A stretch of DNA of 49,374 bases from Eubacteriales bacterium (lineage in GTDB: Bacteria; Bacillota; Clostridia; Lachnospirales; Lachnospiraceae): NCBI GenBank assembly GCA_030524715.1, contig JAUNGB010000032.1, positions 1 through 49,374 of the forward strand, given 5' to 3'. The position numbers were made by a program, and so were the translations under genes. The notes beneath the pieces were generated by a model. It had not been told where the DNA came from and did no database searches. It saw nothing but the letters and a program-made list of their open reading frames with translations. Positions 9,597 to 14,426 of the stretch are shown in pieces. Numbering within the stretch: position 1 is the first letter of the stretch; every line of letters starts with the position of its first letter.

Positions 9597-10133
9597 TCAG
9601 AGGATGTCTTTCATGAGCCGATATTGGCAGGAGGCCAGGGTTTCTTTTGAGAGCTTATAACCGCTTTTGATCCAACGAAGAGTCATACCTACAAGGCCGC
9701 TTACATAGAAAGCAGTCACGGACTCAACAGGACCAGGCAGTAAAGCGCCTCTGGCAAGCTTTTCTTCCAATACAAGGGTGATATACCGGCTGAAGAACTG
9801 ATAAAACATTTCTAACAATTCTGCGTTTAGTTCAGTTTCAAAGATATTAAAAAAAATTTTTTCTTTTTCCTGGAAGTTGCTCAATAGTACAACAAAAAAA
9901 TCTTTTGGCTCATGTGTCTCCATTAAAGCCTCTAATTCCTTTGAGGTCTTATCCAGACAATAAGCCAGCAATTCATATTTATCCTGAAAATGCAGATAAA
10001 ACGTACTGCGGACGATCATGGATTTTTCACACAGCTCGTTTACGGTGATTTTGGGAAATGGTTTACTTTTTAATAAATCCAATAGTGTGTTGGCCAGTAT
10101 CTGTTTCGTTTCGGGCTGGTTATTTTTATTCAT
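9597..10133 (-). CDS. TetR/AcrR-family transcriptional regulator
   Basis: This is a dimeric DNA-binding repressor type, about 178 residues. The N-terminal HTH (about residues 9-55) reads ITVNELCEKSMIVRSTFYLHF, followed by DKYELLAYCL, the usual third-helix and linker region. The C-terminal helical domain would hold the ligand pocket. The start at ATG 10133 is chosen because AAAGGAG lies seven bases upstream; the longer frame from 10169 adds 12 residues with no ribosome site. It stands 98 bases downstream of a second TetR gene on the same strand, and no obvious target gene (pump or enzyme) is adjacent. The target is unknown. Confidence 0.88.
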   Translation of the reverse strand: MNKNNQPETKQILANTLLDLLKSKPFPKITVNELCEKSMIVRSTFYLHFQDKYELLAYCLDKTSKELEALMETHEPKDFFVVLLSNFQEKEKIFFNIFETELNAELLEMFYQFFSRYITLVLEEKLARGALLPGPVESVTAFYVSGLVGMTLRWIKSGYKLSKETLASCQYRLMKDIL

Positions 10134-10231
10134 GAATACACTCCTTTGTAAGATTAATAGAGACATCATAAAGGATTTTTCTGCAGGGATAAAATTAACG
10201 ATGCCCCTTCATCATTATGATATCTTAAAAT

Positions 10232-10798
10232 TTAATTATCGGAAGGCTCATCCGGATTTTCCATAGGAGCCATAAAAGGAAGAAGCATCTGCGCCATTTG
10301 TTCAGGAGTCTCTTTGTATCCGCTTTCACTCCAGAGGATCAGCGCAAAGGACAGGCCGCCTGCGTTAAAGTGCAGATGGTAATTCTCAGAAGCGCTTAAT
10401 TGATGGTTTCCGGAAAGTTCCGTATAAAAATACTTCAGATTATCTATAAAATTCTGGAAGATCAGTTCAAGCAGGTTTGCTTTTTTTAATGTAGGAAGCA
10501 GGCTGCCATGTTCTTTAAAAAAGGTAAGAAAATGCACGGCGAACTGGTGAAGCGTGATATCCGGGCGGGACTTTATCTCCTGCATAAAATCATGGGCAAG
10601 GCTGTTAAAATACTGGATAAGGATATCTTCTTTTGAAGAATAAGTGCGATAATAGGTCATCCGTGAAACGCCGGCCTTTTTCGCAATGTCTGTGACAGTG
10701 ATGCTTTGGTAATCATTTTGCTCCATGAGAAGAAGCAATGCGGTAGAAATATAATTTTTGACTAATGCAGCGTCATGTTCATCTTTTTTTCTTCCCAT
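10232..10798 (-). CDS. TetR/AcrR-family transcriptional regulator
   Basis: This is a 188-residue TetR-type regulator, different in sequence from its neighbour. The HTH is at about residues 20-65 (ITVTDIAKKAGVSRMTYYRTY, then SSKEDILIQYF). The C-terminal helices include a segment near ENYHLHFNAGGLSFALILWSE, typical of the TetR_C_33-like group. The start is ATG 10798 with GGAGGTGT upstream on the minus strand. A 13-bp perfect palindrome at 10828-10840 lies about 30 bases upstream and is a candidate autoregulatory operator. It is divergent from the DUF5685-Hsp70 operon, so it might regulate that operon; this is inferred from position only. Confidence 0.88.
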   Translation of the reverse strand: MGRKKDEHDAALVKNYISTALLLLMEQNDYQSITVTDIAKKAGVSRMTYYRTYSSKEDILIQYFNSLAHDFMQEIKSRPDITLHQFAVHFLTFFKEHGSLLPTLKKANLLELIFQNFIDNLKYFYTELSGNHQLSASENYHLHFNAGGLSFALILWSESGYKETPEQMAQMLLPFMAPMENPDEPSDN

Positions 10799-10989: not shown

Positions 10990-11079
10990 ATGCCCGCTTA
11001 TTACTGTTACACCTGCGGGGCAGAAAGTAACGTCCGTTTTAGAGAAAACAGAGAAAGAGATTTTCAGAAGATCTTATAA
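10990..11079 (+). CDS. 29-residue CxxC small protein
   Basis: This short gene has an excellent ribosome site (AGGAGG, seven bases before ATG). It encodes 29 residues beginning MPAYYCYTCGAESN, with one CxxC pair (C6, C9) as in half a zinc ribbon or a rubredoxin-like knuckle. The C-terminal half is charged (FRENRERDFQKIL). It ends 13 bases before the DUF5685 gene and lies inside the operon leader. It could be a metal-binding microprotein, a leader peptide, or the relic of a longer zinc-ribbon protein. The start signal is better than that of the TTG-initiated gene after it, which favours real translation. Confidence 0.5.
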   Translation: MPAYYCYTCGAESNVRFRENRERDFQKIL

Positions 11080-11092
11080 AGGAAGTGATTAA

Positions 11093-11917
11093 TTGTTCGG
11101 GTACATTGTATGTAATAAAGAAAAACTTGCGAAACAGGAAATAGACCGTTATCAGAGCGTCTATTGCGGATTGTGCAAGGCGCTGGAGCGTCGGTTTGGA
11201 CAATTGTCCAGAATGAGCCTGAATTATGATATGACATTTTTAATCCTGTTTTTATCCTCGTTGTATGAGCCGCCGGAGGAAGAGAAGGATTTCCGATGTG
11301 CTGTCCATCCGCTGCATATGAAAAAGGCGACGGCAAATAAGTATACGGATTACGCGGCGGATATGACCATAGCCCTTTCGTATTATAAATGTCTGGACGA
11401 CTGGCAGGACGAGCATAAGCATTTACAGCGCCATTATGCGGAAAAAATAGAAAAAAATTATCAGGATGTAAAAGCGCGCTGTCCGAGACAATGCAAAGCC
11501 ATCGAAACAGAAATTGCCAGGCTTTCAGAGATTGAAAAATCGGCGTCGTCTTTACCGGACGACGCGGTAAACTGTTTTGGACGGTTAATGTCAGAGTTGT
11601 TTGTATATGAAGAGGATTTTTGGAGCAGCAGCTTAAGAACCTTTGGATATGAGCTGGGAAGATTCATTTATCTGATGGACGCCACCATGGATTATAACAA
11701 AGATTTGAAGAAAGGAAATTATAATCCGCTGGTTTCCATGGGGAAAAATCCGGAGGAGATGGAAGATTTTCTGACTATGATCATCGGCAGGGCTGCATAT
11801 CAGTTTGAAAAACTGCCGTTGGTCCAGGATTCTCATTTGCTGAGAAACATTCTGTATGGCGGTGTGTGGCAGCAATACTATGCCCGCAAAGCCAGAAAGG
11901 AGCGTACGCATGATTGA
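11093..11917 (+). CDS. DUF5685 family protein
   Basis: The family has no assigned function. The 274-residue protein is predicted to be almost wholly helical, with no signal peptide. Visible features are C7 and the pair C25/C28 (YCGLC), an aspartate-rich DDWQDE at 102-107, C130/C134, and near the C-terminus [18 protein letters not shown] (196-213). The two Asp-rich motifs loosely resemble the metal-binding motifs of class I isoprenoid synthases; this is my inference, not an established annotation. It starts with TTG, with AAAGGAAG upstream. Its last eight bases overlap the J-domain gene, so translation is coupled. The constant neighbours (J protein, Hsp70) suggest a client or partner of a dedicated chaperone. 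Confidence 0.8.
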
Positions 11918-12635
11918 CGATCCGTATAAAGTCCTGGGAGTATCTGAGGATGCTTCAAAGGAGGAAATTAAGAAAGCGTACCGGCAAAAGGCAAAACAGT
12001 ATCATCCTGACTTACATCCGGACGATCCGGACGCCGCAAAAAAGATGAATGAGATCAACGAAGCCTATGATATGCTGAATAATCCGCAGAAATATAAAAA
12101 AGAGGAACAGAGAAATTCTTCAGCAAACAGAGAATACAGAAATCCATACGGCCAAACCGGAGACAGTTGGAACGGAAGCGGGCAGCAAGGGGGCTTCGGG
12201 GACTTTGGAGGATTTGATTTTGAAGATATTTTTGGCTTTAGAAGAAATTATGAGCCGGTAAAACCAACGGTCCAGGCAGGGGACAGCCAGGAGATACGGC
12301 AGGCCATCGATCTGATCAGTATGGGACAGTTCGGATATGCGAATACTACGCTGAATGGTATCGTCAGCAGCCAGAGAAATGCCAGGTGGTATTATTTAAG
12401 CGCTCTTGCCAATCAGGGGCTGGGAAACACGATACTGGCGGCGGAGCAGATCGACAAGGCAATTCAGATGGAGCCGGGGAATCCGGATTACCGGAAAATG
12501 AAACAAAATTTATATAGAACAGAGAATACATACAGTGAAGCAGGACAGGAATTTCAAAAATATACGGAGAGTATGGGAAAATTCTGCATGGGATTTTTTG
12601 CCGTTCAGTTTTTCTGTATGTTTTGCTGCAGGTAG
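11910..12635 (+). CDS. J-domain co-chaperone with TPR-like region and cysteine-rich tail
   Basis: J proteins stimulate Hsp70 ATPase activity and bring clients. This 241-residue protein has a J-domain at about residues 4-63 with the HPD triad at 32-34, then a Gly/Phe-rich linker (about 80-110). A helical, TPR-like section follows (about 125-200; [20 protein letters not shown]). The end is hydrophobic and cysteine-rich ([17 protein letters not shown]), perhaps a membrane or metal contact. The DnaJ zinc fingers and C-terminal substrate domains are absent, so it is a specialised J protein rather than DnaJ. The start at 11910 overlaps the DUF5685 stop and has AAAGGAG upstream. The Hsp70 gene follows after 15 bases. 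Confidence 0.9.
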
Positions 12636-12650
12636 AGAGGAGATATATTA

Positions 12651-14426
12651 ATGAGTAAAGTAATTGGAATCGATCTGGGAACTACAAATAGCTGTGTGTC
12701 GGTAATAGAGAATGGAGAACCGGTCATTGTACCGACCGGTTCCGGCAATCGGACGACTCCCAGTGTTGTAGCATTTACAAAGAACGGAGAGCGGTTGGTA
12801 GGAGAAGCTGCCAGCCGTCAGGCAGTAACAAATCCGGAGAGGACCATCACTTCCGTAAAAAGGCATATGGGAACGGAATGGAGCGTCCGTATCGATGGGA
12901 AAGAATATAAGCCGCAGACGATCAGCGCTATGATATTGATGCAGCTGAAAAAAGACGCGGAAGCCTTTCTTGGAGATACGGTGACAGAAGCCGTTATTAC
13001 GGTACCTGCATATTTTAATGATATTCAGAGACAGGCTACCAAGGACGCCGGCCGGATCGCGGGGTTGAATGTAAAAAGAATTATTAACGAACCCACCAGC
13101 GCGGCGCTTTCCTATGGATTAAACCACGGGGAGCCGCAGAAGGTTATGGTTTATGATCTTGGCGGCGGTACGTTTGACGTTTCCATTATTGAGATCGGCG
13201 AAGGCGTCATAGAGGTACTGGCAACGGCCGGGGATAATCATTTGGGCGGGGACGATTTTGACTCCAGGATTACTGATTGGATCATCAGGGAATTTAAAAG
13301 GGAACACAGGATCGACCTGTCCCGTGATTTTGCTGCGCTGCAGCGTGTGCAGGAAGCGGCGGAGCAGGCAAAAAAGGAATTATCTTCATCAGAAAGCACG
13401 CACATTGTACTGCCGTATCTGGCTAACAGTAAAGGAGAGGCCATACATCTGGATATGACCTTGTCCCGCAGCCAGTTCAATGATCTGGTAAAGGATCTGA
13501 TAGAACGTACGGCAGGACCGGTGCAAAGCGCGCTGAGCGACGCAGGAATCGCGGCGTCTGAGCTTGGACGCGTACTGCTGGTGGGAGGCTCTACAAGAGT
13601 TCCGGCAGTACAGGATAAAGTAAGAGCTTTGACGGGAAAGGAACCGTCCAGAAATATCAATCCTGATGAATGTGTGGCAAAGGGAGCCGCGATTCTGGGA
13701 AGTACACTGGAAGGAAAGGCTCTTCCGGCCGCAGGAACCGGGCAGGACTTACTGCTTTTGGATGTGACGCCGCTCAGCTTGTCCATAGAAACGGTGGGCG
13801 GAGTTGCCACCAGGCTGGTAGAACGCAATTCAACCCTGCCTACCCGTTATTCCCGTGTGTTTTCAACGGCGGCGCCATATCAGCGAGACGTGGAGATTCA
13901 TGTCCTGCAGGGAGAACGTCCGATGGCAAAGGATAATAAGACTGTGGGGAAATTTAAGCTGAAGGGAATCCGCAGGGCGCCGGCAGGAGTTCCTCAGATC
14001 GAAGTTACCTTTGATATTGACGCAAACGGAATCCTGAAGGTATCGGCGAAGGATCTGGACACCGGAAAGGAACAATCCATTACGATTACAGCAGACGACA
14101 GAATGTCCGAGGCGGAAATCGAGCAGGCCATTCGGGACGCGCAGCAATACGCGGGACAGGATTCCATGCGGCGGGACGCAATGGAACTGAACAGCGAAGC
14201 GCAAAGCCTTCTGGCAAAGACGCAGCAGGCGCTGAAAAATGCCGGAAAGCAGTTGGATAAGGCGGAAAAGAAGCAGATCAAGCATGACTGTAATGCATTA
14301 CAGAAGCTTCTTATGAAGTTCCGGGTAGATAAGGTTTCTGAAGCCGATATGGAGAATATCCGAAACGCGAAGCAGCAATTGGAAAATTCCAGCGCAAGAG
14401 TCAGGGAGCTTTATGGTGAAAAATAA
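12651..14426 (+). CDS. Hsp70 chaperone (DnaK family), probable second paralogue
   Basis: This ATP-driven protein-folding chaperone has 591 residues. The nucleotide-binding domain shows [15 protein letters not shown] at the N-terminus, the phosphate-2 motif [12 protein letters not shown] and the adenosine motif [11 protein letters not shown]. The substrate-binding beta domain includes [16 protein letters not shown] and the linker region is intact. The helical lid ends at residue 591 without the usual long disordered tail. It is not accompanied by hrcA or grpE, and no CIRCE operator is visible, so this is probably not the main heat-shock dnaK. The partner J protein and DUF5685 protein come from the same transcript. 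AGAGGAGA precedes the ATG. Confidence 0.93.

Follow-up and report, generated by a model that had tools for sequence, protein, structure and literature searches.

The window analysed here, i.e. the whole 49,374-nucleotide stretch of contig JAUNGB010000032.1 from a member of the Lachnospiraceae (assembly GCA_030524715.1), carries three plus-strand genes, identified from open reading frames (ORFs) and Pfam matches, which encode in this order a DUF5685 protein, a J protein with a cysteine-rich C-terminal tail and an Hsp70. The genes overlap or nearly abut, the J protein start overlapping the end of DUF5685 by 8 bp and the Hsp70 starting 15 bp beyond the J protein stop:

11093..11917, + strand: DUF5685, TTG start (PF18937, E 4e-98)
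11910..12635 (stop included), + strand: J protein, ATG start (Pfam, AlphaFold and tetratricopeptide repeat (TPR) fold matches)
12585..12632, + strand: cysteine tail of the J protein, residues 226-241 with four cysteines, the proposed lipidation site from sequence and tail comparison
12651..14426, + strand: Hsp70 paralogue without an acidic C-terminal tail (Pfam/NCBIfam, tree and tail check)

A preliminary description of this DNA saw in these genes, together with a small CxxC peptide upstream, a four-gene operon dedicated to an Hsp70 chaperone and serving DUF5685 as client or enzyme. The close spacing of the three larger genes is confirmed; the CxxC peptide, which has no match in relatives, probably does not belong to the conserved set. 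The interpretation is partly supported, in that a separate canonical dnaK is present, DUF5685 keeps a J partner and the linked Hsp70s form a weakly supported group of their own, but an operon built for Hsp70 is not borne out. We propose that DUF5685 prenylates the tail of the adjacent J protein, thereby creating a membrane anchor, a reading to which we give an even chance of being correct.

Pairing of DUF5685 with a cysteine-tailed J protein

The J protein of the window matches the DnaJ domain PF00226 at residues 4-62 (E 3e-22), and the HPD motif is present in 57/57 aligned J proteins, none of which has two or more CxxCxGxG repeats (0/57), in line with the previous statement that the protein lacks the zinc domain of DnaJ. 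In an AlphaFold model (pLDDT 82, pTM 0.50), the J domain spans residues 5-68 and the TPR pair residues 127-187, with a disordered linker at 71-111 between them. A single long helix (192-239) follows and contains the cysteine tail, the cysteines of which are residues 226, 236, 239 and 240. Among the matches listed, the solved structures resembling the model do so chiefly in the TPR part and include Fis1. Of the two C-terminal features described previously, the cysteine-rich tail is thus borne out, while the TPR-like part is weak in Pfam and appears as a pair in the model.

DUF5685 is found at E 0.001 in 34/299 phylum, 154/250 family, 56/60 genus and 205/393 class genomes, 201 of the latter 393 exceeding the cut-off of the DUF5685 family; Thermotoga maritima is the sole positive among 14 control genomes. 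Three sets of loci were examined, namely 98 from the phylum, family and genus lists (L045-L065 and L068-L144), picked non-randomly according to their rank by score and their interest, the 80 loci that match the window best (L145-L224), and 13 class picks chosen partly because a J protein seemed missing. The first two sets share some loci (L117/L156, with identical Hsp70s, and L080/L207), and flanks of 1.5-6 kb as well as contig ends hide some neighbours. Counting as partner a J/TPR profile match on the same strand within 300 bp or in the same frame, DUF5685 has a J partner at 89/98, 80/80 (including the doubtful fusion L155) and 10/13 loci, a few partners matching by their TPR part alone (L136, L341). 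The J protein is a conserved partner of DUF5685, and the pairing is near-obligate. At L111 full-length DUF5685 and J protein are found in a single ORF; the comparable frame of L155 was not used, as the DUF5685 C-terminus and the J protein start are missing and it looks like a deletion or an assembly join. The source genome itself (5.28 Mb, 210 contigs) has a second DUF5685 gene on contig C127, which is likewise followed by a cysteine-tailed J protein, and there is no Hsp70 match on that contig.

At least four cysteines occur within the last 45 residues of 88/89, 76/76 and 10/10 complete partners in the 98-, 80- and 13-locus sets, respectively, as against 63/1565 other ORFs of at least 200 amino acids at the same loci, a control that mixes real and unreal ORFs. 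A CxCxGGD-type motif is present in 42 and absent from 131 of 173 cysteine-tailed ORFs, and a cysteine lies within the last three residues in 42/42 and 104/131 of these, respectively, the commonest ending being CC (61). Furthermore, the tail is kept in TPR partners without a J-domain match beside DUF5685 (L341, L144 and, by eye, L140), and at L074 DUF5685 is paired with an unclassified cysteine-tailed protein. The J-less TPR protein next to DUF5685 at L341:3761-4198 (- strand) has 19 cysteines in its last 45 residues, with runs of six and four.

The Hsp70 is, in contrast to the J protein, mostly absent. A same-strand Hsp70 is found near DUF5685 at 8/98 loci (L070, L077, L098, L105, L117, L125, L129, L132) and 9/80 loci (L145, L152, L154, L156, L157, L184, L188, L193, L219), i.e. 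17/178; it is placed upstream in L125, L184, L188 and L219 and lies about 1 kb from the J protein in L129. The notion of an operon built for Hsp70 is thereby not supported, and the expectation that a J-Hsp70 pair should accompany DUF5685 holds for the J protein only, since DUF5685 is usually without Hsp70 yet nearly always with J.

J protein tails in genomes without DUF5685

In the family, 80 of 96 DUF5685-negative genomes were searched for this J type, and four contain it (G395, G456, G372, G435); its absence from 76/80 is an upper limit, because the class J-profile search missed J genes that came to light on direct inspection (G707, G739, G900, G957, G843). The tails of G395 and G456, where the Hsp70 is kept, are free of cysteine and hydrophobic, and that of G372 is a hydrophobic helix with two cysteines. 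The cysteine string was expected beforehand to be absent from further DUF5685-negative genomes. A J-profile match of at least 126 bits occurs in 120 genomes of the class sample (122 rows), exactly four of which, all of one genus, lack a DUF5685 row (G852, G953, G978, G683). The J protein tails of these end in a cysteine-free KLF(I/L)GFYAIQF helix in 4/4 cases, a test that was not wholly blind, as the J matches of two had stopped short of the tail. In G825, which belongs to the same family as this genus and has DUF5685, the tail is of the cysteine type. A 14-residue segment of the window's tail aligns with KLFIGFYAIQFLLS, with phenylalanine and leucine where the cysteines stand. A cysteine tail without adjoining DUF5685 occurs in G638 and G406, both of which have DUF5685 elsewhere.

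The replacement of the cysteines by a hydrophobic helix in lineages without DUF5685 suggests that DUF5685 attaches a lipid to the tail. The tail would then act as a membrane anchor in either form, needing DUF5685 if composed of cysteine and not if composed of leucine, isoleucine and phenylalanine. The same tail evidence, cysteine tails and hydrophobic replacements alike, would be compatible with lipidation by another enzyme, for example by acyl transfer, with DUF5685 in a supporting role. This is, however, very unlikely considering that DUF5685 adjoins nearly every tail examined, although it should be mentioned that the loci were selected by DUF5685. It has also to be considered that DUF5685 may be a non-catalytic holder or targeting factor, the hydrophobic cavity of which shields a greasy cysteine tail until membrane insertion. 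The modelling of the tail within one long helix, its match to the hydrophobic helices of DUF5685-less genomes and the pairing and fusion of the two proteins would all agree with such a role, but the near-invariant aspartates described below suit a magnesium-diphosphate enzyme and are needless for a holder; moreover, a holder would suit transmembrane (TM) tails as well, whereas 8/9 TM-tailed J genes are without DUF5685 in the fetched flanks, and we consider this explanation unlikely. At L354:4042-6416, away from DUF5685, a TM-tailed J protein of 181 amino acids precedes an Hsp70 that scores 871 bits against that of the window, and this pair is possibly a DUF5685-independent version of the module.

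Fold and proposed activity of DUF5685

The window's DUF5685 scores 328.5 bits against PF18937 (gathering cut-off 26.7). Among the top-ranked open PMC papers, one lists the name of the DUF5685 domain without more, none on this DUF5685/J system was found, and those on related prenylation or J proteins led no further. The overall fold, according to an AlphaFold model and fold searches, is that of the class I isoprenoid synthase (trans-isoprenyl diphosphate synthase, trans-IDS) superfamily, MoeN5 occupying the first Foldseek rows. In a comparison of 99 sequences, two Asp-rich motifs, D102-D103-x-x-D106 and D196-x3-D200-x3-D204, are near-invariant, the assignment of D196 to the second motif stemming from two non-significant alignments (HMMER to 4jxy, and hhalign). 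Y193, upstream of the second motif, is kept in 99/99 sequences and takes the place of the glutamine that is a feature of ComQ and PalQ, the glutamine of 4jxy being placed by a weak alignment. C25, C28, C69 and H72 are conserved as well, and this C-C-C-H site likely binds zinc. The motif GGKR occurs in 1/99 and 1/61 and RRG in 0/99 and 0/61 DUF5685 sequences, as against 26/27 and 27/27, respectively, of the prenyl synthases from related genomes, these 27 being those of 29 loci retained by a filter on two motifs and length. Judged by these motifs, DUF5685 has lost the isopentenyl diphosphate (IPP) site found in chain-elongating enzymes, which argues against a chain-elongating synthase and not against a terpene synthase.

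DUF5685 may alternatively be a small-molecule isoprenoid enzyme, i.e. a terpene or prenyl synthase, which the J protein and Hsp70 fold, stabilize or deliver; this is the earlier client model with a name given to the enzyme. Both the shared fold with its aspartate motifs and the tight pairing with J are as this would have it. It is nevertheless improbable, since an Hsp70 is so seldom nearby and since neither the loss of the tail cysteines where DUF5685 is missing nor the keeping of the tail by J-less partners is predicted by it; the missing IPP-site motifs speak against its chain-elongating form. The previously proposed role of DUF5685 as a client is weaker than the reverse, in which the J protein is acted upon by DUF5685, because it is the cysteine tail rather than the J domain or the Hsp70 that tracks DUF5685. 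The conserved cysteines in both proteins and the acidic CxCxGGD tails (42/173) could furthermore indicate that the tail binds a metal or an iron-sulphur cluster, which the C-C-C-H site loads or receives, with J and Hsp70 acting like HscB and HscA. However, a cysteine-free hydrophobic helix at the same place is hard to reconcile with a cluster, DUF5685 is folded like a prenyl synthase and neither the HscA nor the HscB model reaches its cut-off, so that such a function appears quite unlikely.

The simplest mechanism is S-prenylation, because of the behaviour of the tail and the prenyl-synthase fold without an IPP site. DUF5685, a putative prenyltransferase of the trans-IDS fold as modelled, would bind an allylic prenyl diphosphate via magnesium at the two Asp-rich motifs and transfer the prenyl group onto cysteine thiols of the J protein tail, which would then serve as a membrane anchor. 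By way of its TPR pair and J domain the anchored J protein may bring an Hsp70 to clients at the membrane, this Hsp70 presumably being the paralogue in the genome of the window and the ordinary DnaK in most relatives. That DUF5685 and the cysteine-tailed J protein together constitute a bacterial system for prenylation of protein cysteines, common in Clostridia and using metal-activated thiols, is put forward tentatively, at somewhat less than an even chance.

Several observations weigh against prenylation of the tail. With respect to fold, no Foldseek match of the model reaches E 0.001 or better, the hhalign score of DUF5685 against prenyl synthases (18.5) lies within those of controls (12.5, 13.5, 16.1 and 22.7), and HMMER gives 4jxy at E 0.3, behind three unrelated helical proteins. 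According to PMC13290415, the characterized trans-IDS-like peptide prenyltransferases all act on tryptophan. With respect to the tail, the 42 more acidic CxCxGGD sequences resemble a metal site more than a greasy anchor; the seven DUF5685-less cases with hydrophobic tails may represent three independent events, four of them coming from one genus; and G435 has a cysteine-tailed J protein with no DUF5685 found, its upstream gene being unseen because the contig end cuts the J gene. At L120 DUF5685 adjoins a J-like protein that is TM-tailed and has no HPD, and G964 contains a TM-tailed J-Hsp70 pair away from its own DUF5685; a TM tail does therefore not require DUF5685 to be missing. Eight loci are without a convincing cysteine-tailed partner (L107, L139, L141, L142, L143, L340, L343, L348); L076 stops at a contig edge. 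Homology to trans-IDS enzymes rests on fold and motif order, since the comparison of sequence profiles with PDB chains and with prenyl synthases revealed no kinship; in a Pfam scan of 61 DUF5685 members SQS_PSY was matched by one (E 0.037) and DUF2600 by two (E 0.01), and chance families score similarly.

Hsp70, flanking genes and comparison with known systems

The source genome encodes three long Hsp70s, the canonical one on contig C148, that of the window and a divergent one on C163, besides a short match on C125. A second, standard dnaK, the presence of which the preliminary description had left to be checked, is thus at hand on C148 and has a perfect CIRCE (controlling inverted repeat of chaperone expression) upstream. 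The Hsp70 of the window is indeed short, with 591 amino acids against the 635-amino-acid open frame of the canonical DnaK, and exceeds the cut-off of PRK00290 (822.9 bits, cut-off 648) but not that of TIGR02350 (806.4 bits, cut-off 822.55). In a 39-row tree, 18/20 linked Hsp70s, including that of the window and the opposite-strand L192, are united with weak support (80/75) in one group that excludes 15 canonical Lachnospiraceae DnaKs; those of L141 and L143 place elsewhere and, being distant and on the other strand, were not used as evidence. A DYKEV-like end in its strict form is present in 0/18 grouped linked Hsp70s versus 15/17 canonical ones, a looser acidic end occurring in L188, L192, L193 and perhaps L219. 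Another long Hsp70 is also present in 8/8 tested genomes with a linked one.

Among the 12 non-self family Hsp70s of at least 65% identity, three lie by DUF5685 and J (G360, G441, G382), three by this J type without visible DUF5685 (G395, G456, G435) and six by neither (G427, G403, G351, G484, G322, G464), which counts against a strictly dedicated partner. With this and the low number of linked loci, DUF5685-Hsp70 was rejected as a conserved unit. In G427 the window-like Hsp70 is found directly downstream of the canonical dnaK-dnaJ (L253:3987-9128), and the divergent Hsp70 on C163 (L067:7251-10349) is followed by a 461-amino-acid J-like protein with a C-terminal cysteine motif that we take to be SEC-C-like.

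The operon is flanked by two minus-strand TetR regulators and a DUF234/AAA ATPase, and the region upstream contains:

9597-10169 and 10232-10798, - strand: TetR-type regulators (TetR_C_8), divergent, just upstream of the operon
10990..11079, + strand: 29-codon CxxC ORF, a doubtful gene with no counterpart found in relatives

By eye, GTTCAT and ATGAAC half-sites that could form an operator precede position 10990. The absence of CIRCE was confirmed for the window with up to three mismatches allowed, and that of grpE and hrcA for the genes next to the operon, which were the only ones checked, the rest of the window not being annotated. Neither Pfam nor NCBIfam has a match to the CxxC ORF, and phmmer found nothing similar among ORFs of at least 25 amino acids in loci L045-L224. 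In 15 close relatives no equivalent was seen ahead of DUF5685, the only CxxC-bearing ORF there (L110) being the terminal part of a zinc-ribbon gene; the CxxC ORF was therefore rejected and is probably not a conserved part of the operon. Immediately upstream of the DUF5685 ORF, 60/178 loci have a zinc-ribbon gene (for example L065:4515-4919), the product of which has, by eye, putative membrane helices at the N-terminus and reaches the cut-off of no Pfam model. In L077, L117, L152, L154 and L156 it lies beyond the Hsp70, 3.8-4.0 kb off, and it was not found in the window. No relative was found in the viral contigs searched.

Among known systems, HscB-HscA, which the preliminary description had named, resembles the pair of the window in that a J protein has its own short Hsp70, but the two proteins stay below the respective models (HscA 551.3 against a cut-off of 708.55, HscB 16.8 against 46.75) and the Hsp70 is optional here. 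MoeN5 is a prenyltransferase of the same fold as DUF5685 that reportedly uses a small-molecule acceptor other than IPP, and we know of no J protein partner of it. The chain-elongating trans-IDS enzymes (farnesyl, geranylgeranyl and polyprenyl diphosphate synthases, PF00348) share with DUF5685 the fold and the order of the two Asp-rich motifs, whereas DUF5685 lacks GGKR and RRG, has no significant sequence match to them and has the additional conserved cysteines and histidine. Closer in terms of acceptor are ComQ, PalQ and the P domain of ChrPC, which, according to PMC5331326 and PMC13290415, combine a prenyl-synthase fold and a DDxxD first motif with a non-IPP acceptor. ComQ-ComX furthermore offers a precedent in which an enzyme of this fold acts on the peptide product of the adjoining gene (PMC5331326); DUF5685 and its proposed substrate, the J protein, are neighbours as well. 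These enzymes, however, modify tryptophan in peptides and have a glutamine just upstream of the second motif (PMC13290415), whereas DUF5685 has Y193 at that spacing, the C-C-C-H site and a cysteine-tailed co-chaperone as partner.

Even with another chemistry, DUF5685 has now been given a fold, a partner and a tail that can be tested. If prenylation of the tail is correct, a domain of unknown function present in about half of the sampled class genomes would turn out to attach lipids to proteins, and the action of Hsp70 at the membrane in gut Clostridia could be put to the test. In eukaryotes, the J proteins DNAJC5 (cysteine string protein) and farnesylated DnaJA/Ydj1 are held at membranes by lipidated cysteines, the lipids being attached by enzymes of folds other than trans-IDS. 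DUF5685 and its J partner would then constitute a bacterial counterpart of these lipid-anchored J proteins, arrived at via an unrelated enzyme.
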